Source of the DNA: Betaproteobacteria bacterium
GTDB taxonomy: Bacteria > Pseudomonadota > Gammaproteobacteria > Burkholderiales > WYBJ01
Reading direction: 5' to 3'
Assembly (NCBI GenBank): GCA_009377585.1
Contig: WHTS01000004.1
Span: 75,874-139,873, forward strand
Length of the DNA: 64,000 nucleotides
Positions 656 through 63,103 of this stretch are shown piece by piece. The stretch's first letter is position 1; each line of letters starts with the position of its first letter. The notes beneath the pieces are model-generated. The model searched no databases. It saw only the letters and a list, made by a program, of their open reading frames with translations, and was not told where the DNA came from. The position numbers and the translations under genes are program-made.

Positions 656-1603
656 ATGGCGACCAGCCTGCTGGCACTGCTCGACGACATCAGCACGATC
701 CTGGACGACGTCGCCGTACTCACCAAGCTCGCCACCAAGAAGACCGCCGGCGTTCTCGGCGACGACCTCGCACTGAACGCGCAGCAGGTTGCCGGGGTGA
801 AGCCCAACCGCGAGCTGCCGGTCGTGTGGTCGGTCATGAAGGGGTCGTTCGTCAACAAGGCCATCCTGGTCCCGGCCGCGCTCGCGGTCAGTGCGTTCGC
901 ACCCTGGGCGGTCACGCCGCTGCTGATGGTGGGCGGCGCGTTCCTTTGCTACGAAGGATGCGAGAAGCTCGCCCATCGCTTTCTGCACGACGAAGCGGAG
1001 GATCGCGTCCACCATGCCGAGCTGGCGCAGGCGTTGTCCGATCCGGTGGTCGACGTGGTGCAGGTCGAGAAGAACAAGATCAAGGGCGCGGTGCGCACCG
1101 ATTTCATCCTCTCGGCGGAGATCATCGCCATCACCCTCGGCACGGTCGCCGCTCGACCGCTGCTCACGCAGGTGCTGGTATTGAGTGGCATCGCGCTCCT
1201 GATGACGGTGGGTGTCTACGGGCTCGTCGCCGGCATCGTCAAGCTCGACGATGCCGGCCTGCACCTGTCGCAGGTCGTGGGCGAGACGGCATGGGTGCGC
1301 GCGCGTCGTCGCCTCGGCGTGGCGATCCTGATAGCAGCGCCGTGGCTCATGAAGGGATTGTCGATCGCCGGCACCGCGGCGATGTTCCTGGTGGGTGGCG
1401 GCATCCTGGTGCACGGCGTTCCCTTCCTGCACCACGCGGTCGAAAGCCTGGTGCACGCCGTCGCCGGCATGCCCGCGCTGGGTGCGGCCCTGGAAATCGT
1501 CGCCGAAATGCTGGGCAACGCCGTGATCGGGATCGTCGCGGGTGCGGCTTTGCTCGCGGTGGTTAGCACAGTGCAAAGACTCCGGCGTCCGCGACCGGCC
1601 TAG
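656..1603 (+). CDS. yedI: DUF808 family inner-membrane protein (YedI-like)
   Basis: A 315-residue protein starting MATSLLALLDDISTILDDVA and matching the DUF808/YedI family along its whole length: the conserved N-terminal segment with K-KTAGVLGDD, the AL-AQQV-G segment, and an ENR-like PNRELPVVW stretch. Several hydrophobic helices are visible (about residues 68-100, 150-175, 180-205, 220-250 and 280-305). The family is an integral inner-membrane protein of unknown biochemical role. An AGGA motif lies about 10 nt before the ATG. The stop codon TAG at 1601-1603 coincides with the left boundary of a repeat element (A1), so the gene ends exactly where the element begins. It is followed by a ZIP transporter in the same direction. 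Confidence 0.88.
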   Translation: MATSLLALLDDISTILDDVAVLTKLATKKTAGVLGDDLALNAQQVAGVKPNRELPVVWSVMKGSFVNKAILVPAALAVSAFAPWAVTPLLMVGGAFLCYEGCEKLAHRFLHDEAEDRVHHAELAQALSDPVVDVVQVEKNKIKGAVRTDFILSAEIIAITLGTVAARPLLTQVLVLSGIALLMTVGVYGLVAGIVKLDDAGLHLSQVVGETAWVRARRRLGVAILIAAPWLMKGLSIAGTAAMFLVGGGILVHGVPFLHHAVESLVHAVAGMPALGAALEIVAEMLGNAVIGIVAGAALLAVVSTVQRLRRPRPA

Positions 1604-1711
1604 TGTTGCGAATCGCAAATTCGTTGTAATTCGTCATTCCCGCGCAAGCGGGAATCCAGAACGAGACTCCGCCTGGACCCCCGCGTTCGCGGGGGTGACG
1701 AACTTCTGCTA
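1601..1711 (+). mobile_element. MITE-like element A, copy 1 (right end shortened)
   Basis: First of three copies of a non-coding repeat (others at 13529-13763 and 41510-41630). It starts TA-GTGTTGCGAATCGC and contains two strong hairpins: ATTCCCGC-GCAA-GCGGGAAT and ACCCCCGC-GTTC-GCGGGGGT. These are bracketed by TTCGTCA/TGACGAA and TCCAG/CTGGA inverted pairs. The right end reads CTTCTG-C-TA-G and lacks about 10 nt (ACTCAGGACA) present in copy 3. The element occupies nearly all of the space between yedI and the ZIP gene. Confidence 0.75.
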
Positions 1712-1727
1712 GCAACAGGTGCAAACG

Positions 1728-10578: not shown

Positions 10579-11301
10579 ATGAAGGCAAGCCGGCTCGACA
10601 ACAAGGTCTTGGTGCCCGGGGGCGAAACGGTGAATCTTGCGCTGGACGAGATGCTGAAGCGCCTGGAGTTTCTTGAGCAGCGCGTCGAGCGCCTGGAAGC
10701 GGCCGCCGGGATGGGGCGCGCCGCCGCGGCAGCCTCCAACGCGGACGATTTCACCGCGACCGGTGCGCCTCAGCAAGCACACAGCGTCGCCTCGGCGGAG
10801 CCGATCGAGCAGCAAGGCGAAGCGCCCGCCCATCGCGGCTCGGTCGTCGAACAGCGCGGCGAAACATCCACCCATCGCGGCTCGACCGCCGAACAGCAGG
10901 GTGAAAGATCCACCCATCGCGGCTCGACCGCCGATGCGCCGGTGACCGAACGGCTCGACCGGGTGCCGGGACGCGATGCCGGGGCGGATCCGTTTCCCGA
11001 TCTGTCGCTGCTGGACGAGAAGGTGGAGCCCAAAAAAGGCCCGGCCGAGCACCTGCGGGTGCGCGCGGCGCTGGAGGACTATCCGCGGATTTCGACCCGC
11101 ATCGAGCAGCTTTGGGGAACGCCGGACTGCGAGGCGTATCTCAACAGCCTCGTCATCGATACGCGCGGCAACCGCCAGGGTTTCCCGCCTGCGATGATGG
11201 AAGAGCTTCTTTACCTCGGACGTCTGGCGCGCGCGCTCGTGATCCTGCGGGTGAGCGGCGATCTCTGGGACACCTTCGACCAGGTGGGCGATCGGCGCTA
11301 G
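10579..11301 (+). CDS. Unknown protein with coiled-coil start, tandem-repeat linker and conserved C-terminal domain
   Basis: A 240-residue protein of no recognised family. Residues 1-42 contain a short coiled coil (LDEMLKRLEFLEQRVERLEA). Residues 77-118 are three 14-residue repeats of the form EQ(Q/R)GE---HRGS(T/V)(A/V), encoded by a 42-bp tandem repeat. Residues 150-240 look folded (RISTRIEQLWGTPDCEAYL, IDTRGNRQGFPPAMMEELLY) and resemble hypothetical proteins seen in betaproteobacteria. It is soluble by composition. The repeat linker is probably disordered and variable in length between strains. It stands alone 232 nt after the FAD gene and its stop codon overlaps an opposing short reading frame at the palindrome CTAG 11298-11301. 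Confidence 0.65.
   Translation: MKASRLDNKVLVPGGETVNLALDEMLKRLEFLEQRVERLEAAAGMGRAAAAASNADDFTATGAPQQAHSVASAEPIEQQGEAPAHRGSVVEQRGETSTHRGSTAEQQGERSTHRGSTADAPVTERLDRVPGRDAGADPFPDLSLLDEKVEPKKGPAEHLRVRAALEDYPRISTRIEQLWGTPDCEAYLNSLVIDTRGNRQGFPPAMMEELLYLGRLARALVILRVSGDLWDTFDQVGDRR
10807..10932 (+). repeat. Three in-frame 42-bp tandem repeats inside a coding region
   Basis: Three units at 10807-10848, 10849-10890 and 10891-10932, each encoding a 14-residue EQxGExxxHRGSxx block. Units 2 and 3 are nearly identical at DNA level, so recent duplication is likely. Being a multiple of three, copy-number change would keep the host gene in frame. Confidence 0.85.
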
Positions 11302-12576: not shown

Positions 12577-13494
12577 ATGAAGCGTCCTTTGCACCAGCGG
12601 GCTGCATGGCCGTTGCTGGCGATTTGCTGCTTCGTGCTTGCGCTTTGCCCGGCAATCGCGCGCGGGCAAGGCGAGCAGCCCCCGTTCGTGGTCACGCCGG
12701 CGCAGGTGGTCGATCGCATGCTCTCGATGGCGAAGCTAGGCCCCGACGACGTGCTGATCGATCTCGGCTCCGGCGACGGACGCATCGTGATCGAGGCGGC
12801 CAAGCGCTTCGGCGCACGCGGACTCGGCATCGAGATGAATGCGAGCCTGGTCGAGACGAGCCGTGCAGCGGCCCGGCGTGAAGGCGTCGCCGAGCGCGCA
12901 CGCTTCGAACGCGGCGACGCCCTAACAACCGATCTCGGCCCCGCATCGGTTGTCACGCTGTACCTCTCGCCCGAGTTGAACGAGCGCCTGCTGCCTCGCA
13001 TCCTCGCCGCCCTGCGACCGGGAAGCCGGGTCGTATCCCACGACTTCGCCATCAGCAACTGGGCACCGGACCGCACCGAGCGATTGAACGTGCCGGAAAA
13101 GAACAACGGCCGCGGCGGCGAAAGCGTCGTCATGCTGTGGATCGTGCCGGCCAACGCCGCCGGCCGCTGGCGCGGTGCCATCGGCCACGGCGCGCCTCGG
13201 CGCGCCATTAGTCAAGGCGCGGCCAGCCGCGCCTTCGAGTTCAGCCTCGGGCAACAGTTCCAGTTTCTCGAAGGCGGATTGCACGGGCCCACCGGCGCGA
13301 CGCTCGCGTTCAAGGCATCGCTCTCCGGCGACCGCATCACCCTGCAACTGCCGGCGCAAGGCGCGGCAGCCGCCGGAGAGGTCCACGCGCGTATCGCTGC
13401 CGACGCCATGACGGGCACCTGGGTCGCGGCCGACGGCGCCGTCTCGGCGCCGTTCGAAGCCCGCCGTATCGCAGCGCGCCCCGACCTCTACTGA
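12577..13494 (+). CDS. Exported class I SAM-dependent methyltransferase
   Basis: A 305-residue protein whose first 30 residues form a signal peptide or N-terminal anchor (basic MKRPLHQR, then WPLLAICCFVLALCPAIARG). Residues 38-190 are a Rossmann methyltransferase: motif I VLIDLGSGDGRIVIEA, motif II-like GIEMNASLVE, then VVTLYLSPELNERLLP and LRPGSRVVSHDF. The C-terminal third (about 210-305) is a beta-rich region with no recognised family. An S-adenosylmethionine enzyme directed to the periplasm is odd, because the cofactor is cytoplasmic; the N-terminus may instead anchor the domain at the cytoplasmic face. It lies 28 nt after the Bug gene and is probably co-transcribed with it. Confidence 0.75.
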   Translation: MKRPLHQRAAWPLLAICCFVLALCPAIARGQGEQPPFVVTPAQVVDRMLSMAKLGPDDVLIDLGSGDGRIVIEAAKRFGARGLGIEMNASLVETSRAAARREGVAERARFERGDALTTDLGPASVVTLYLSPELNERLLPRILAALRPGSRVVSHDFAISNWAPDRTERLNVPEKNNGRGGESVVMLWIVPANAAGRWRGAIGHGAPRRAISQGAASRAFEFSLGQQFQFLEGGLHGPTGATLAFKASLSGDRITLQLPAQGAAAAGEVHARIAADAMTGTWVAADGAVSAPFEARRIAARPDLY

Positions 13495-13528
13495 CAGATT
13501 AAAAGGGCCAGGCCGAGATCAACCTAGC

Positions 13529-13763
13529 TAGTGTGGTGAATCGCAAATTCGTCGTAATTCGTCGTTCCCGCGCAAGCGGGAATCCAGAACGAGACCCCAC
13601 CTGGACCCCCGCATTCGCGGGGGTGACGAACTTCTGACTTATCGAGCGTTCCTTATTTCATGTCACGCTCGTCCCTCACCCCCAACCCCTCTCCCGGGGG
13701 GAGAGGGGAGCGTCGCGTCCGTATTGGACTGTCGTCCAATACGGAACGATCAATAGGACACTA
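13529..13763 (+). mobile_element. MITE-like element A, copy 2, split by element B
   Basis: Left end TA at 13529-13530 followed by GTGTGGTGAATCGC. The body carries the same two hairpins as copies 1 and 3. After TTCTGACT the sequence is interrupted by element B (13640-13755) and resumes as GGACAC-TA at 13756-13763. Copy 3 shows the uninterrupted form (TTCTGACTCAGGACAC). The right-hand TA lies in the TAG stop of the malonyl-CoA decarboxylase gene. The element fills the gap between two convergent genes. Confidence 0.8.
13640..13755 (+). mobile_element. MITE-like element B, copy 1, nested in element A
   Basis: A 116-bp sequence bounded by TA at 13640-13641 and 13754-13755. The left terminus TCGAGCGTTCC pairs imperfectly with the right terminus (reverse complement TTGATCGTTCC), 13 of 18 positions matching over the longer arms. 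Internal hairpins are CCCCTCTCCC-GG-GGGAGAGGGG and CGTATTGGAC-TGTC-GTCCAATACG. Other copies lie at 30343-30536 and 60803-60918. No coding capacity. Confidence 0.8.
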
Positions 13764-15224
13764 GCGGCGCAGCAATCGCCGCAGCTCGCTCGAAAGCGCA
13801 ACCTTGCCGTGCAGCCGGTAAGCCTCGTGATTGCGCTCGATCTCGGCCGGGTCGTAGACATAGTTGACCATGATCCCGGCGGATTGCTTCATGCCCTTCT
13901 CCGAGGTATCCCCCAGCCAGTTGAGCCGCTCGATGCGCGCGCCGTTGTCGAGGTGGAAACGCGCGACGGAATCGACCGGCCGCAAGCCGTTGCGTGCCTC
14001 GGCCAGATAATGCGCACACGCGAACAGCATGGGTTCCTCGATCGCCTGCACGAGCTTCGGCTCCCGGCTCCAGGTACGGCCGTCGAGGCCGCTCCACAGC
14101 TCGCGCACATTGGCCGCCTCCATGCCGGCTTTCTTCAGCTTCGACTGCACCGATGCCGGCAGCATGACTGCGGCGGCCGCGGCCGATTGCAGCCAGCGAG
14201 CGAATCCCGGAACCGGCGACAAGGTGGCGAAATTGCGCAGTGCCGGGAAGTCGCGCTTCAGTTCGTCCACCACGCGCTTGATGAGGAAATTACCGAAGCT
14301 GATGCCGCGCAGCCCCGGCTGGGTGCTGGAGATGGAATAGAAGATCGCCGTATCCGCCTTGCGCAGATCGGCGGCCGGCTGATTCTCATCCAGCAGCCTC
14401 TGGATGCTGGCGGCGAGCCCCCTGGACAACGCCACCTCGACGAAGATGAGCGGCTCGCGCGGCATGCGCGGGTGGAAGAAGGCATAGCAGCGGCGATCGG
14501 AATCCAGCCGGTTGCGCAGGTCGTCCCAGGAGCGGATCTCGTGCACCGCTTCGTACGCGATCAGGCGCTCGAGCAGCGACGCCGGTGAATCCCAGGTGAT
14601 GGTCTGCAGCTCCAGGAAGCCCACGTCGAACCACAGTGCCAGCAGGCCGGAGAGCTCCCGCTCGAGCCCCTCCAGCTCCGGGTTTTCCCGCGCTGCTCCC
14701 AGCAGATCGGCGCGCAGGTCGACGAGGAACTTCACCCCGTCGGGCAGCCCGGTGAACTGGGTGAGGATCTTTACCCGCGGCGCGCGCATCGCTTCGCGCA
14801 GGGCGCGTTCATACTCGAGGTGAGACGCATCGTCCCGGGCCTCCAGCAACCCGCGCGCGGCCGCGCCGAGCACGCGCCGGTCCGGACCGAAGCTGGCGAT
14901 CAGCGCGAGGAATTCGCGCTTGCCGGCCGCGTTCAGGCCGAGGTAGGTCTGGCCGAGCGCCGCCGCCTGCAGCCGCGCCGACACTTCACCTCCGGCCTGA
15001 GCGACGCACGCATGCATCTGGCTTTCGAGCTCCTTCAGCTGGCGCCGGGTCATTCCGCCCGGCACTGCCTCGTCGGTCGACGCAACGCCGGCGATGCGCT
15101 GCCAGGTTTGCCGCAGCCGATCGAGCTGACGGCTGACGAAGCTCTCGCTGCGTATGACGGGAGGATTCTCGGCCTCCCGTCCCGGCGCCGCCACGCTCGT
15201 GCCTTGCAGTGCCGAATCAGGCAT
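13761..15224 (-). CDS. Malonyl-CoA decarboxylase
   Basis: A 487-residue protein with the malonyl-CoA decarboxylase fold: an N-terminal four-helix domain (about 1-160) and a GNAT-like catalytic domain. Conserved stretches include FLVDLRADLL, ELQTITWDSPASLLE, FYSISSTQPGLRGISFGNFL with the active-site Ser region, FATLSPVPGF, and VARFHLDNGARIERLNWL with the catalytic His. It converts malonyl-CoA to acetyl-CoA and CO2, which allows growth on malonate or relieves malonyl-CoA build-up. Start 15224 is supported by GAGGAGG upstream; the longer in-frame version begins with non-conserved sequence. The TAG stop at 13761-13763 coincides with the end of repeat A2. No matA/matC genes adjoin it. Confidence 0.92.
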   Translation of the reverse strand: MPDSALQGTSVAAPGREAENPPVIRSESFVSRQLDRLRQTWQRIAGVASTDEAVPGGMTRRQLKELESQMHACVAQAGGEVSARLQAAALGQTYLGLNAAGKREFLALIASFGPDRRVLGAAARGLLEARDDASHLEYERALREAMRAPRVKILTQFTGLPDGVKFLVDLRADLLGAARENPELEGLERELSGLLALWFDVGFLELQTITWDSPASLLERLIAYEAVHEIRSWDDLRNRLDSDRRCYAFFHPRMPREPLIFVEVALSRGLAASIQRLLDENQPAADLRKADTAIFYSISSTQPGLRGISFGNFLIKRVVDELKRDFPALRNFATLSPVPGFARWLQSAAAAAVMLPASVQSKLKKAGMEAANVRELWSGLDGRTWSREPKLVQAIEEPMLFACAHYLAEARNGLRPVDSVARFHLDNGARIERLNWLGDTSEKGMKQSAGIMVNYVYDPAEIERNHEAYRLHGKVALSSELRRLLRR

Positions 15225-15461
15225 CGACGCTTCCCTCCTCAAGGGAACGCCGGCAAACGCCGAAATTGTGAACGGGTAACGATATGCGGCATGGAAAACG
15301 GTCTGCTCGGGCCATGGTAGCGCGGTCGGGCTCGTTAGTGTGCTGGCATCAGGTTTGCTGTAGAGCATACGCCAGCCTCGAGGCCAGAGCATAGCGAATG
15401 CCGGCCGGAACGTGTCGATTTCGCGGCAGGCGATCGCGTCATTGGAACAAAGGAAAACAAG

Positions 15462-30342: not shown

Positions 30343-30536
30343 TATCGAGCGTTCCCTATTTCATGTCACGCTCGTCCCTCACCCCCAACCCCTCCCTTGC
30401 AGGGCGCGCATCGGCATGCAGGCCGATGCCGTTCGGCCGGCACGGACCATGGTCCGCGAATTCCAGGCCTCACCCCGGGGGGAGAGGGGAGCGTCGCGTC
30501 CGTATTGGACTATCGTCCAATACGGAACGATCAATA
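30343..30536 (+). mobile_element. MITE-like element B, copy 2, with 78-bp insertion
   Basis: Termini TA-TCGAGCGTTCC and GGAACGATCAA-TA match copies 1 and 3, as does the CGTATTGGAC-TATC-GTCCAATACG hairpin. The centre differs: between AACCCCT and CCGGGGGGAGAGG about 78 bp are inserted, part of which (30391-30429) is a dispersed repeat C that also occurs inverted at 34025-34063. Length is 194 bp against 116 bp for the other copies. Confidence 0.75.
30391..30429 (+). repeat. Dispersed repeat C, copy 1 (inside element B)
   Basis: A 39-nt block with a palindromic core gcgcatcggcatgc-(a)-ggccgatgc. It matches the reverse complement of 34025-34063 at about 36 of 39 positions. Confidence 0.65.
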
Positions 30537-40855: not shown

Positions 40856-41512
40856 ATGACGTTCCAAAGCGCAATCAGACTCGGGCGTCCCCGGCTTGTC
40901 TCGCTCTGCTGCATCACCCTGCTGTTCGCGTGCGCCTGGCTGGCGTGGCAGCCGCGCATGGCCATGGCGACCGAGCTGGTTCGCGATGGCTACTACTGGT
41001 ACGTTCCGGAGCACGAGAAATACTCGCGCACCAGTTTTTTCAGCGAGCCCAGCTTCCAGAGCGGAACGATCCGAATCACGCGCACGGAGCGCTTCCAATT
41101 CGTGGCAGCAAAACGCGGCTGGGCGCTGCTGCAGTTCGACAGCGGAACGCGGGCGTTCATTCACCTGCGCCTGCTGAACATTCTGCTGTGGAATCCGGCG
41201 GCCAGCGATCCCTGGTACGAATTCAAGCGCGCCTCGGTTTTCGCCGAGGAGCCGGAGAAGATCGAGGCGCGGCTGAAGTCGGGGCGCACCGAGCCCAATA
41301 CGGCCGAGTCCAAGGTGCCGATCTGGAAGCGCTACAAGGACAGCTGGGGCATCAACAAGGGCCGCAGCCAATCGAGCGACAGCGATGCGGACGGTGTTTC
41401 CACGCCAACGCCGGAGAAAAAGCGAAACAAGTATCCGCTGCTGCCGCCGATCGGGTCGCAACCGCAACCCGGGAACGGCGAGCAGCCGGCGCAGGATGAG
41501 GCAGCGCGCTAG
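40856..41512 (+). CDS. Exported protein of unknown function
   Basis: A 218-residue protein with an N-terminal signal peptide or anchor (about 1-38, RLVSLCCITLLFACAWLAWQ). Residues 42-120 form a likely folded beta-rich part (YYWYVPEHEKYSR, TIRITRTERFQFVAAKRGWA, AFIHLRLLNILLW). Residues 125-218 are charged and probably disordered, with Lys, Glu and Pro-rich stretches. No family is recognised. The stop TAG at 41510-41512 coincides with the left end of repeat A3. It follows the thiolase gene by 39 nt on the same strand, but its content suggests an envelope role unrelated to that operon. Confidence 0.6.
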   Translation: MTFQSAIRLGRPRLVSLCCITLLFACAWLAWQPRMAMATELVRDGYYWYVPEHEKYSRTSFFSEPSFQSGTIRITRTERFQFVAAKRGWALLQFDSGTRAFIHLRLLNILLWNPAASDPWYEFKRASVFAEEPEKIEARLKSGRTEPNTAESKVPIWKRYKDSWGINKGRSQSSDSDADGVSTPTPEKKRNKYPLLPPIGSQPQPGNGEQPAQDEAAR

Positions 41513-41630
41513 TGTGGTGAATCGCAAATTCGTCGTATATCGTCATTCCCGCGCAAGCGGGAATCCAGAATGAAACCCCGCCTGGACCCCCGCGTTCGCG
41601 GGGGTGACGAACTTCTGACTCAGGACACTA
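41510..41630 (+). mobile_element. MITE-like element A, copy 3 (uninterrupted)
   Basis: The most complete copy, 121 bp between TA 41510-41511 and TA 41629-41630. Termini are GTGTGGTGAATCGCAAATTC and, at the right, GAACTTCTGACTCAGGACAC, whose reverse complement matches the left at 14 of 20 positions. It has the two internal hairpins described for copy 1. It lies exactly between convergent genes, with its left TA in the TAG stop of the upstream gene. Confidence 0.8.
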
Positions 41631-41635
41631 GTTAC

Positions 41636-43290: not shown

Positions 43291-43403
43291 CGCATGGGTC
43301 GTGAACGAAGCGGCACGTTTGCAGTTTAGCACGGGGCACCCCCGCGTACGTCCAGCGCGCGGCCCGGGCCAGCGCCAATGCGCGCCTCGCGCTGCGCCAA
43401 TGC

Positions 43404-43495
43404 GCGCCTCGCGCCTGCTCGAATTTGCGCCTCGCGCCTGCTCGAATTTGCGCCTCGCGCCTGCTCGAATTTGCGCCTCGCGCCTGCTCGAATTT
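43404..43495. repeat. Perfect tandem repeat, four 23-bp units
   Basis: The 23-nt unit at 43404-43426 (cgcctcgcgc ctgctcgaat ttg) occurs four times without mismatch (43404, 43427, 43450, 43473). Immediately upstream are degenerate relatives with a GCGCCAATG ending. It lies between the NUDIX gene and a small membrane-protein gene. Coding is not supported in either direction. Confidence 0.9.
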
Positions 43496-43540
43496 GCGCC
43501 AACGATCCGCTGCAATCGACCGTGTGCTGCGGCCGCCTGC

Positions 43541-56532: not shown

Positions 56533-56651
56533 GTCAGCTGCGGTGGGTCCGCACGAGTTGCGGTACTAGAGAACCGATCGATCTTCGCACCGTCGCTCCC
56601 CCTGTGGCGGAAGCGACCTCCCGCGCACGCGCGAGCCCAGGAGAAGTCAAG

Positions 56652-56684
56652 CCGTCTGGATTCCCGCCTGCGCGGGAATGACGC
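56652..56684. repeat. Single-hairpin relative of element A
   Basis: The sequence CGTCTGGATTCCCGCCTGCGCGGGAATGACG contains the hairpin ATTCCCGC-CTGC-GCGGGAAT. It is the inverted form of the left hairpin of element A, without the second hairpin or the TA-flanked ends. It lies near the 3' end of the dehydrogenase gene. Confidence 0.65.
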
Positions 56685-60802: not shown

Positions 60803-60918
60803 TATCGAGCGATCCCTATTTCATGTCACGCTCGTCCCTCACCCCCAACCCCTCTCCCGGGGGGAGAGGGGAGCGTCGCGTCCGTATTGGACTGTCGTCC
60901 AATACGGAACGATCAATA
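60803..60918 (+). mobile_element. MITE-like element B, copy 3
   Basis: TA at 60803-60804 and 60917-60918 bound 116 bp that match copy 1 closely, with TCGAGCGATCC at the left terminus. The same CCCCTCTCCC-GG-GGGAGAGGGG and CGTATTGGAC-TGTC-GTCCAATACG hairpins are present. The right end supplies the final codon and TGA stop of the adjacent oxidoreductase gene. Confidence 0.8.
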
Positions 60919-62037
60919 AGCCACCCCTCGCTTTTCCTGTTCCGCCGTGATCGGCAGCGGCACCGCGCGCTTCAGGCGCGCGGAAAGATCCATCGCCTTG
61001 GTAAGCATGAGTCGGTTGTGCGCCTCCTTGGCAGTGGCGTGCTGTGTCGGCACACCGACCGAGACGCGGTTGAGCCACGAGTTGGTCTCCTCGCGCATCG
61101 GCCCGCGCAGCTCGCCGAGCGCCATGTCCCCGACCGGGTAGCTGGTCAGAAAGTCTACGTGGCGGCGGCTGTCGGGCGCATAGCCTTCGGTCTGGATCTT
61201 CTCGGTCGCCAGCACGATGTCGCGGTGCGTATCGTCGATCGTGAGCACGCCCTCGACGCCGACAATGCCGATCTCGAGGCTGTAGACCGCACCCGGCCAC
61301 ACCACCGGCAGCGCCCAGGAAATGACCGACTGGTACACCGTTCCGTCGTCGAAAGTGATGATGTTGGCGGTACCGTCGATACCGCGCCACTTGGGGCCGA
61401 GCGCCTTGTCCACCGAGCGCGAGTAGACTTCGACGGCGGTCTTTCCTTCGAGCAGCCACATCGCGACGTCGAGCGCGTGCGTGCCGGAGATCACCATGGG
61501 CGAGATCGTCTCGGGCTTCTCGGTACGCTTGTAGTTGTCGATCGCGACCAGGCGGTTCATGAATGCGCGCGAGGTCACCATCGTGACTTCGCCGAGCGAG
61601 CCGGTCGAAACCTTCTCTTTCGCCACCAGCCAGCGGCGGCGGAAGCGCTGGGTGTATCCCACCACCGCATCGACCCCCGACTTCTCGATCTGCGTCATCA
61701 CGCGCTCGGAAGCCGCCAGCTCGGTGGCGAGCGGCTTCTCGATCAGCATCGGCAGGCCCCGTTCGACCGCGGCCGCGACCGGGTCGACGTGCAGGTGCTC
61801 GTCGGTCGCGATGACGACGGCATTGACTTCGGGCCGCGCGAGCAGCTCGCGGAAATCCTGGGTGACGAAATCGGCCCCCACCTTCTCGGCCACGATCTGC
61901 GCGCGCTCCGGATTCTTCTCCGCGATACCGATCCACTCGACTTCGGGATGGCGCGCGGCGAGCTCGCCGCGAATGAGCCCCACCCGGCCCGCGCCCACGA
62001 TGGCGAGCCCGATCTTCTTCGGTTGCTTCTTCGGCAT
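60913..62037 (-). CDS. Gfo/Idh/MocA-family oxidoreductase (second of a tandem pair)
   Basis: A 374-residue NAD(P)-dependent oxidoreductase. The Rossmann motif is LAIVGAGRVGLIRGEL. The family EKP motif lies in MLIEKPLATELA, with AVVGYTQRFRRRWLVAK following, and AMWLLEGKTAVEVYSRSV in the C-terminal beta-sheet domain. Substrates are usually sugars, inositols or related polyols. Start ATG 62037 has GGGAG 7 nt upstream. It lies 19 nt after its paralogue. Its last codon and TGA stop derive from element B copy 3, so the original C-terminus has probably been altered. Confidence 0.85.
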   Translation of the reverse strand: MPKKQPKKIGLAIVGAGRVGLIRGELAARHPEVEWIGIAEKNPERAQIVAEKVGADFVTQDFRELLARPEVNAVVIATDEHLHVDPVAAAVERGLPMLIEKPLATELAASERVMTQIEKSGVDAVVGYTQRFRRRWLVAKEKVSTGSLGEVTMVTSRAFMNRLVAIDNYKRTEKPETISPMVISGTHALDVAMWLLEGKTAVEVYSRSVDKALGPKWRGIDGTANIITFDDGTVYQSVISWALPVVWPGAVYSLEIGIVGVEGVLTIDDTHRDIVLATEKIQTEGYAPDSRRHVDFLTSYPVGDMALGELRGPMREETNSWLNRVSVGVPTQHATAKEAHNRLMLTKAMDLSARLKRAVPLPITAEQEKRGVAY

Positions 62038-62056
62038 GTGCAAACTCCCGGATCGT

Positions 62057-63103
62057 TCAGGCGCCGCGGCCTTCGGGCAGCGGCAGCGCAACCGCCTCGC
62101 CCCGCTCGGCGGAAAGGTCGGCCGCGATATAGCACTCCATCACGGTGCGCGCCTGCTCGGGCGTGACCAGCACCGGCCGGTCGAGCGCGCAGGCCTGCAC
62201 GAAATGGTCGGTTTCGGGCGCCATCGGCCCGGCGTAGGCATGACCGACGAACTCGCCCGGCATCGACGACATCGGAAAGCGGGCGCCATCCTTCATCGTG
62301 GTGATGACACAGTCCCGATGCGTGTTGTCGACGAAAACCGCGCCTTCGCTGGCGACGAACTCGATCCAGCACCAGGAGAAGTTCGGATGCCCCGGCGGCA
62401 GGATCCAGCCGGCGCCGACCACGAACACCACGCCGTCGTCCATGGTGATGGTGATCCACTGGCAATCGGGCACACCGGTATCCTTCTTCACGCCATGGAC
62501 CCACTGCGAATAGACCTTCACCGGCTTCCTCGGCTCCAGCAGCCACAGGATGTAGTCGATGTCATGGGTCGCCTCCATGGCCGCCGGCGAGAGCTTGGTG
62601 CGGCCGCTGATCTTGTTGCCGAGCGAGCGCGCGATATGGCGGCTCACCAGCGCCGAGATCGGCGTGCCGAGGGTGCCGTCGTTCAGGCGCTCCTTGACGT
62701 AGGCGAACTTGTGGTTGAAGCGCTGCGAGTAGCCGATGGTGAACTTGACCTTCATCTCGCGGGCGACCTGGATGAGCTCGTCGGCCTCGTGCAGCTCGAG
62801 CGCGATCGGTTTCTCCAGGAACACGTGCTTGCCCGCCAGCAGGCACTCGCGCGCCATCGGAAAATGCGTCGTCTCCGGCGTGGCGGAAATGAAGAAGGCG
62901 TCGATCTCCTTCACCTCCAGCAGCTCGCGCCACTCGCTCGTGGCCTTGCGCGGCTCGACTTCCTTCGCGACTTCGGCCAGGCGCTCGGGCCGGATCTCGG
63001 CGATATAGAGACCGTCCACCAGTGGATTGGCCTTGCACGCGGTGGCGCGAATGCCGCCGCACCAGCCGGTGCCGATGATGCCGACGTTGATGGGTGTGAT
63101 CAT
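62057..63103 (-). CDS. Gfo/Idh/MocA-family oxidoreductase (first of a tandem pair)
   Basis: A 348-residue NAD(P)-dependent oxidoreductase with Rossmann motif VGIIGTGWCGGIRATACKAN, the EKP motif in HVFLEKPIALEL, and the substrate-site YSQRFNHKF block. The C-terminal sheet domain includes HDIDYILWLLEPRKPVKVYS and WILPPGHPNFSWCWIEFVAS. It shares its layout with the adjacent paralogue (62037-60913), so the two probably arose by duplication and may act in sequence on one polyol or sugar acid. GAGAGGAAGCAG precedes ATG 63103. It is divergent from the VOC fragment. Confidence 0.87.
   Translation of the reverse strand: MITPINVGIIGTGWCGGIRATACKANPLVDGLYIAEIRPERLAEVAKEVEPRKATSEWRELLEVKEIDAFFISATPETTHFPMARECLLAGKHVFLEKPIALELHEADELIQVAREMKVKFTIGYSQRFNHKFAYVKERLNDGTLGTPISALVSRHIARSLGNKISGRTKLSPAAMEATHDIDYILWLLEPRKPVKVYSQWVHGVKKDTGVPDCQWITITMDDGVVFVVGAGWILPPGHPNFSWCWIEFVASEGAVFVDNTHRDCVITTMKDGARFPMSSMPGEFVGHAYAGPMAPETDHFVQACALDRPVLVTPEQARTVMECYIAADLSAERGEAVALPLPEGRGA

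Follow-up and report, generated by a model that had tools for sequence, protein, structure and literature searches.

The window, the 64-kb stretch of DNA analyzed here, comes from contig C4 in a draft assembly of 6,759,568 bases and 242 contigs and contains copies of two short repeats, elements A and B. At 13.5 kb, an element A on the forward strand extends from 13528 to 13764 between its CTAG bounds (13529-13763 from TA to TA) and measures 123 bp once an inserted element B and one TA are subtracted. The B copy occupies 13640-13755 on the same strand, lies in a TTAG target, and is bounded by the two TAs of a putative target duplication (13640-13641 and 13754-13755); its length of 116 bp counts both TAs, for a net insert of 114 bp. 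The original prediction described nested MITE-like elements at this site, and the nesting is real: A carries B between two TAs, the junction reads TTCTGACT-TA-B-TA-GGACAC as claimed, and recounting by eye reproduced the terminal inverted repeats (TIRs) of 14/20 for A and 13/18 for B. An A copy at 41509-41631 (+), which had been presented as the same element without B, does read TTCTGACTCAGGACAC but has CA rather than TA at the target and is therefore a near-empty site. The A copy at 1600-1712 (+) has a short deletion at its 3′ end and retains its CTAG end. A second 116-bp B is located at 60803-60918 (+), and a 194-bp form at 30343-30536 (+) has the ends of B and 78 nt of extra internal DNA with palindromes. 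The latter was considered as a further nested element and rejected, since it is the 194-bp form of B, of which seven full-length copies were found among the sequences examined. Rfam yielded no match up to an E value of 1 in 13300-14000. The window also contains a tandem array with 23-bp spacing (43347-43506) and a set of three repeats with 42-bp spacing (10806-10934).

Because most other A copies listed read CTCAGG at the position targeted by B at 13.5 kb, the host copy there probably underwent a C-to-T change, yielding TTAG, before B arrived. B also lies within A at C18:45593, at a different point of A. At C84:18057 and C24:44421 it occupies a terminal CTAG of A, and at C161:4234 it probably occupies the left one. 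At both internal sites, deleting B plus one TA restores the consensus length of A, whereas deleting B plus both TAs would leave A 2 bp short; by this length criterion, B duplicates TA on insertion. The proposal that filled and near-empty sites show TA-specific mobility of B is upheld by the TA targets, the nested sites, and this length-based duplication, the “empty” site of the window being only near-empty. In relatives, the orthologous 13.5-kb site carries neither A nor B in three congeners (G001, G002, and G003), but the correspondence is not precise to the base: in the nearest congener a further 16 to 18 nt beside A are also absent, and in the other two, divergence at this site precludes a base-level comparison. 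When 116 A/B matches (fragments included) were compared to 811,690 bases of G001, abutting flanks were found at the 13.5-kb site only. For the A copies at C21:41790 and C16:36289, both flanks are present in G001 but are separated by 45 and 259 other bases, respectively. A is flanked by CTAG, which fits insertion into TA, and comparisons with G001 to G003 returned no base-precise empty A site.

To describe the two families, the whole genome was searched, and 40 places were scored for each element from 201 (A) and 251 (B) loose candidates. Intact A copies are CTAG-bounded, and the longer A matches are ∼80 to 99% like the A consensus. The B end pattern with ≤1 mismatch matched 75 + 80 times, compared to 2 + 4 for a reversed-pattern control, and a 20-nt B-end pattern with ≤2 mismatches matched 55 + 60 times, compared to 0, so the abundance of B ends is not due to chance. 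In a pooled sample of 574,038 bases, picked for holding A, B, or IS630 matches, 41 full-length B copies were recognized by their paired ends: 29 of 116 bp, 7 of 194 bp, 2 of 115 bp, and 1 each of 114, 117, and 308 bp. Among the 34 copies aligning over all 116 positions, 15 are identical to the consensus, and B therefore appears to have spread recently. The 194-bp form differs from the 116-bp form by an internal stretch with CCTCAC repeats at its bounds, and the shorter form may be a deletion derivative of the longer one. The 308-bp copy (L105:9950-10257, on C14) consists of the longer B form with further internal DNA. For the B copy at G000:C4:63707-63822, the joined flanks align (73%) to paralogous sequence in L098, which suggests insertion within repeated sequence.

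The flanks of B copies genome-wide, whose inspection had been recommended, are TA at all ends examined, and the ends of both A and B are conserved in the other copies listed. C or T precedes the TA at 46/46 left ends examined, and A or G follows it at 49/49 right ends. All 41 full-length copies occupy YTAR targets (CTAG, 14; TTAA, 10; CTAA, 9; TTAG, 8), against a background of 52 YTAR among the 842 NTAN of the window. Outside this genome, the 20-nt B-end pattern had no match in any of the three congeners and one or two matches in 33 others of 200 genomes searched, nearly all with 2 mismatches; the control also matches once or twice in some genomes. An exact B 22-mer had no match in genome_contigs and a B 20-mer had none in viral_contigs, collections from which the window’s own genome is perhaps left out.

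Candidate sources of transposase were then compared by their ends. For A, an intact element on contig C103 with CTAGTGT ends, similar but not identical to those of A, encodes a 366-amino-acid IS630 transposase (NCBIfam NF033545; Pfam DDE_3) that stops before the end of its element and has relatives in 24 of 300 genomes of the order, its own included. An L062-type PWM was constructed from 28 ends of 14 IS630 elements, taken from 14 of 30 loci (L132-L161); the loci left out of this set and of the L061-type set described below were further copies or had no clear paired ends. All 14 elements used are CTAG-bounded, and a preference of IS630 for TA in CTAG was reportedly the subject of a 1991 title by Tenzen and Ohtsubo. 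With this PWM, just 2 of the 16306 TA-starting 27-mers in the background score as high as the A ends, and these are presumably the C103 element’s own ends. In plain identity, the best agreement of the A ends with L062-type ends is 19/27 and 18/27, levels that 3 and 7 background sites, respectively, also attain.

A 22-mer from the right end of A (CTAGTGTCCTGAGTCAGAAGTT) has exact matches in at least 120 stretches spanning many phyla, where it is carried by MITEs and by IS630 elements of ∼1.2 kb. The record titles among the 80 matches listed include Acidobacteria, Reinekea, Thioalkalivibrio, Planctomycetota, Rokubacteria, Chloroflexi, Gemmatimonadetes, Zixiibacteriota, and Amycolatopsis, many of the records being MAGs in which contamination is possible. 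The 120 stretches contain 126 A-type ends. A partner (≥14/24) lies within 500 bp of 63 of them, palindromic elements being counted twice, at 900 to 1700 bp in 6 (three of these weak, with 15 to 17 of 24), and at another distance in 1; the remaining 56 are partnerless, and for 36 of these the stretch ends within 500 bases. Three elements from other genomes (L300, L322, and L372; 1164 to 1203 bp) have ends paired at 23/24 positions and encode an IS630 transposase 48.6 to 49.8% identical to that of C103. The suggested search for an IS630 transposase with matching ends was therefore successful for A, with similar ends in C103 and near-identical ones in these three elements. In seven of eight printed loci (L300, L298, L297, L372, L364, L268, and L328), which are IS630 elements or fragments, the transposase frame reads RTSDSGH through the end and takes its stop from the TAG within the CTAG target, whereas in L322 the printed end is not in the transposase frame. 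IS870 likewise needs CTAG to form the stop codon of its own ORF, in which it resembles these seven loci; it is unlike A, which has no ORF and shares the stop of a host gene instead. The DDE_3 matches L064 to L067 showed no A- or B-like paired ends, and L064 has one unpaired A-like end (CTAGTGTGCCGGATC). The left-end 16-mer of A had a single viral match (L262). A 59-bp element at L342:6882-6940 resembles two A-type ends placed back to back around an 11-nt centre.

For B, the same search was partly successful: a relict was found, but no intact match. Seven DDE_3 matches were present in the genome. An IS630 element of 1111 bp on C156, with two overlapping ORFs and ends TATTGAGAATCC, agrees with the B ends at 14/27 positions at best, whereas a relict IS630 on C91 with ends TATTGAGCCTTCCATAATTCATGACAT agrees at 21/27 (left) and 19/27 (right); no other background site exceeds 18. 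An L061-type PWM, derived from 12 of 30 loci (L162-L191) and the C156 element, gave the B ends modest scores, equaled by 70 and 77 of the 16306 background sites, and the best identities to this set (14/27 and 13/27) are reached by 1824 and 4300 background sites. No intact partner with B’s own ends was found among the seven DDE_3 matches and the B-end places examined (100 of 155 matches), and such a partner may be missing from the 242-contig draft. Within these 100 places, unpaired B ends were considered as candidate ends of an autonomous element and rejected, since the ones retrieved belong to copies that are truncated, lie at a contig end, have a mutated partner, or are of the 194-bp type. 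In L104, candidate pairs of 1015 and 2843 bp, and in L094 one of 2214 bp, were judged by eye to be due to chance.

The target rule of B also bears on its source. A pyrimidine precedes TA at 24/26 ends of the L061-type set, with a purine at both ends of L176, and, by eye, at 10/10 ends of a closer relative in G420 (5 copies), whereas another IS630 group, in G529 (14 copies), has a purine there at 8/28 ends by eye. On this contrast between G420 and G529, YTAR looks like a property of the IS630 subgroup to which B would belong. A YTAR-targeting transposase of the IS5 family, rather than of IS630, could in principle move B, given that MITEPsy1 inserts at CTAG or YTAA and is tabled as “IS5?” and related by its authors to ISPsy2 (PMC3189936). 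The duplication made by MITEPsy1 is 4 nt, however, whereas in B the YTA on the left is followed by T, and R is found only on the right, so at most TA is duplicated; together with the resemblance of the B ends to the C91 relict, this makes an IS5 origin quite unlikely.

Very probably, then, A and B are two IS630/Tc1-mariner-type MITE families. They are 123 and 116 bp long, encode no transposase, occur in many dispersed copies, and end in TIRs. The earlier view that both follow IS630/Tc1-mariner MITE rules fits, with the refinement that two IS630 subgroups appear to be involved, one targeting CTAG (A) and the other YTAR (B). Both elements are GC-rich stem-loop repeats with fold z-scores of −5.0 to −6.9, a property shared with REP/BIME-like repeats, which are spread by a RAYT (Y1) transposase and beside which the TAs would be incidental. 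In addition, hairpin doublets resembling the A core occur without A ends in this genome (C15:43215, C132:5542, C49:22369, and others). REP elements would not, however, be expected to have strict YTAR or CTAG flanks, a length-based TA duplication, or IS630-matching ends, and BIMEs would show no TA duplication, whereas B makes one; a REP/BIME origin is accordingly very improbable. Scarcely credible is the alternative that A+B is a composite copied whole as one unit, leaving the nesting uninformative on B mobility: four clear copies and one probable copy of the 41 B adjoin or lie inside an A, but the insertion points and flanks of the nested cases differ, and the printed flanks of the remaining B copies contain no adjoining A.

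As two IS630-type MITE families, A and B would have been moved in trans, by cut and paste, into TA, which would be duplicated. A would carry the ends of the CTAG-inserting IS630 subgroup and B those of a second subgroup inserting at Y-TA-R. B would be the younger family, having inserted repeatedly into older A copies, both into YTAR sites in their interior and into the CTAG at their ends. We infer the cut-and-paste mode, the movement by those IS630 proteins, and the duplication of TA by A.

The inner CCCTCACCCCCAACCCCTCTCCC core of B was recognized by eye in the congener G001 with other ends, and A-type ends surround a B-like core in L367, also by eye, which suggests that cores may be exchanged between end types. 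In the window, a hairpin doublet at 56620-56683 is 81% like the A core and lacks A ends. Two G001 loci (L113:3450-3700 and L128:760-960) were seen by eye to contain repeats of their own with a B-like core and ends like TTATTGAGCTTTCGG and CTATTGAAAATCC.

Each of the three A copies identified in the window shares a CTAG with the TAG stop codon of an ORF. The stop (13761-13763, minus strand) of a 543-amino-acid ORF at 13761-15392(−) lies inside the terminal CTAG of the 13.5-kb copy, that (41510-41512, plus strand) of a 218-amino-acid ORF at 40856-41512(+) inside the left CTAG of the 41.5-kb copy, and that (1601-1603, plus strand) of a 315-amino-acid ORF at 656-1603(+) in the CTAG of the copy at 1600-1712. 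In the genome sample, 11/15 usable A copies are at a TAG stop, compared to 36/135 other CTAGs (Fisher P = 0.0005). In other genomes, the corresponding values are 12/26 and 9/99 (P = 5e-5), the 26 usable A-type MITEs being drawn from 34 elements with exact ends and several of them sharing assemblies or families and thus being nonindependent. A copies whose CTAG ends are mutated or whose flanks are short were left out of these counts, and genes were called by open frame and codon-position G+C, or by open frame alone at low-G+C loci, rather than with a gene finder. B shows no excess at stop codons (7/37 compared to 62/348; P = 0.51). Six of the seven stop-sharing genes at B meet its TATTGA end, gaining one tyrosine and a stop; a 392-amino-acid ORF at 60913-62091(−) takes its final codon and stop (TAT TGA) from the right end of the copy at 60803-60918.

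The first base of A after the TA is G, and TAG is consequently re-formed on either side of the element. An A copy entering the C-TAG stop of a gene would thus leave the protein unchanged, and this neutrality is the reason we would give for the stop codon bias of A. Selection removing within-gene insertions may by itself be sufficient to produce the bias. A broader reading, held tentatively and quite possibly wrong, is that A-type elements are stop codon residents across bacteria by virtue of a conserved IS630 end (CTAGTGTCCTGAGTCAGAAGTTCG), accompanied by modular MITEs that share stem-loop cores across end types and phyla. Under the residents reading, the CTAGTGTCCTGAGTCAGAAGTTCG end of an autonomous element would encode the last residues of its transposase and borrow the target TAG, the same end would restore TAG on both sides and make insertion into a C-TAG stop protein neutral, and MITEs would join this or other IS630 end pairs to stem-loop cores drawn from a small set. 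Among the matches listed from the open-licence literature, no title or opening of an abstract describes a stop codon habit of this type.

Several known systems are comparable. RUP of Streptococcus pneumoniae is a 107-bp repeat with 108 copies and TIRs like those of IS630-Spn1; it resembles A and B in its IS630-like TIRs, TA targets, and insertion into other mobile elements but differs in sequence, and the available text mentions neither a YTAR/CTAG rule nor a stop codon bias (PMC2229807). The Correia/NEMIS elements of Neisseria are short TA-ended MITEs in classes of ∼107 and 155 bp that differ by an internal segment, much like the two length classes of B, although they are a different element, and the ends of A and B connect the latter two to IS630 (PMC2229807). 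IS630 and ISY100 duplicate a TA target through an IS630-family transposase (PMC2170065), sharing that target with A and B, and are autonomous, whereas A and B are geneless. Coxiella MITEs offer a further comparison (PMC5896051). A and B are thus new elements of a known kind, and their interest lies in the stop codon habit of the A family and in the apparently exchangeable cores. At the 13.5-kb locus, TA duplication by a bacterial MITE is directly evident from the sequence, and two IS630 subgroups are separated by their target rules. A suggests a harmless route by which mobile DNA can spread, through stop codons that it rebuilds, and the shared cores suggest that some common bacterial stem-loop repeats may travel as the cargo of IS630 ends.
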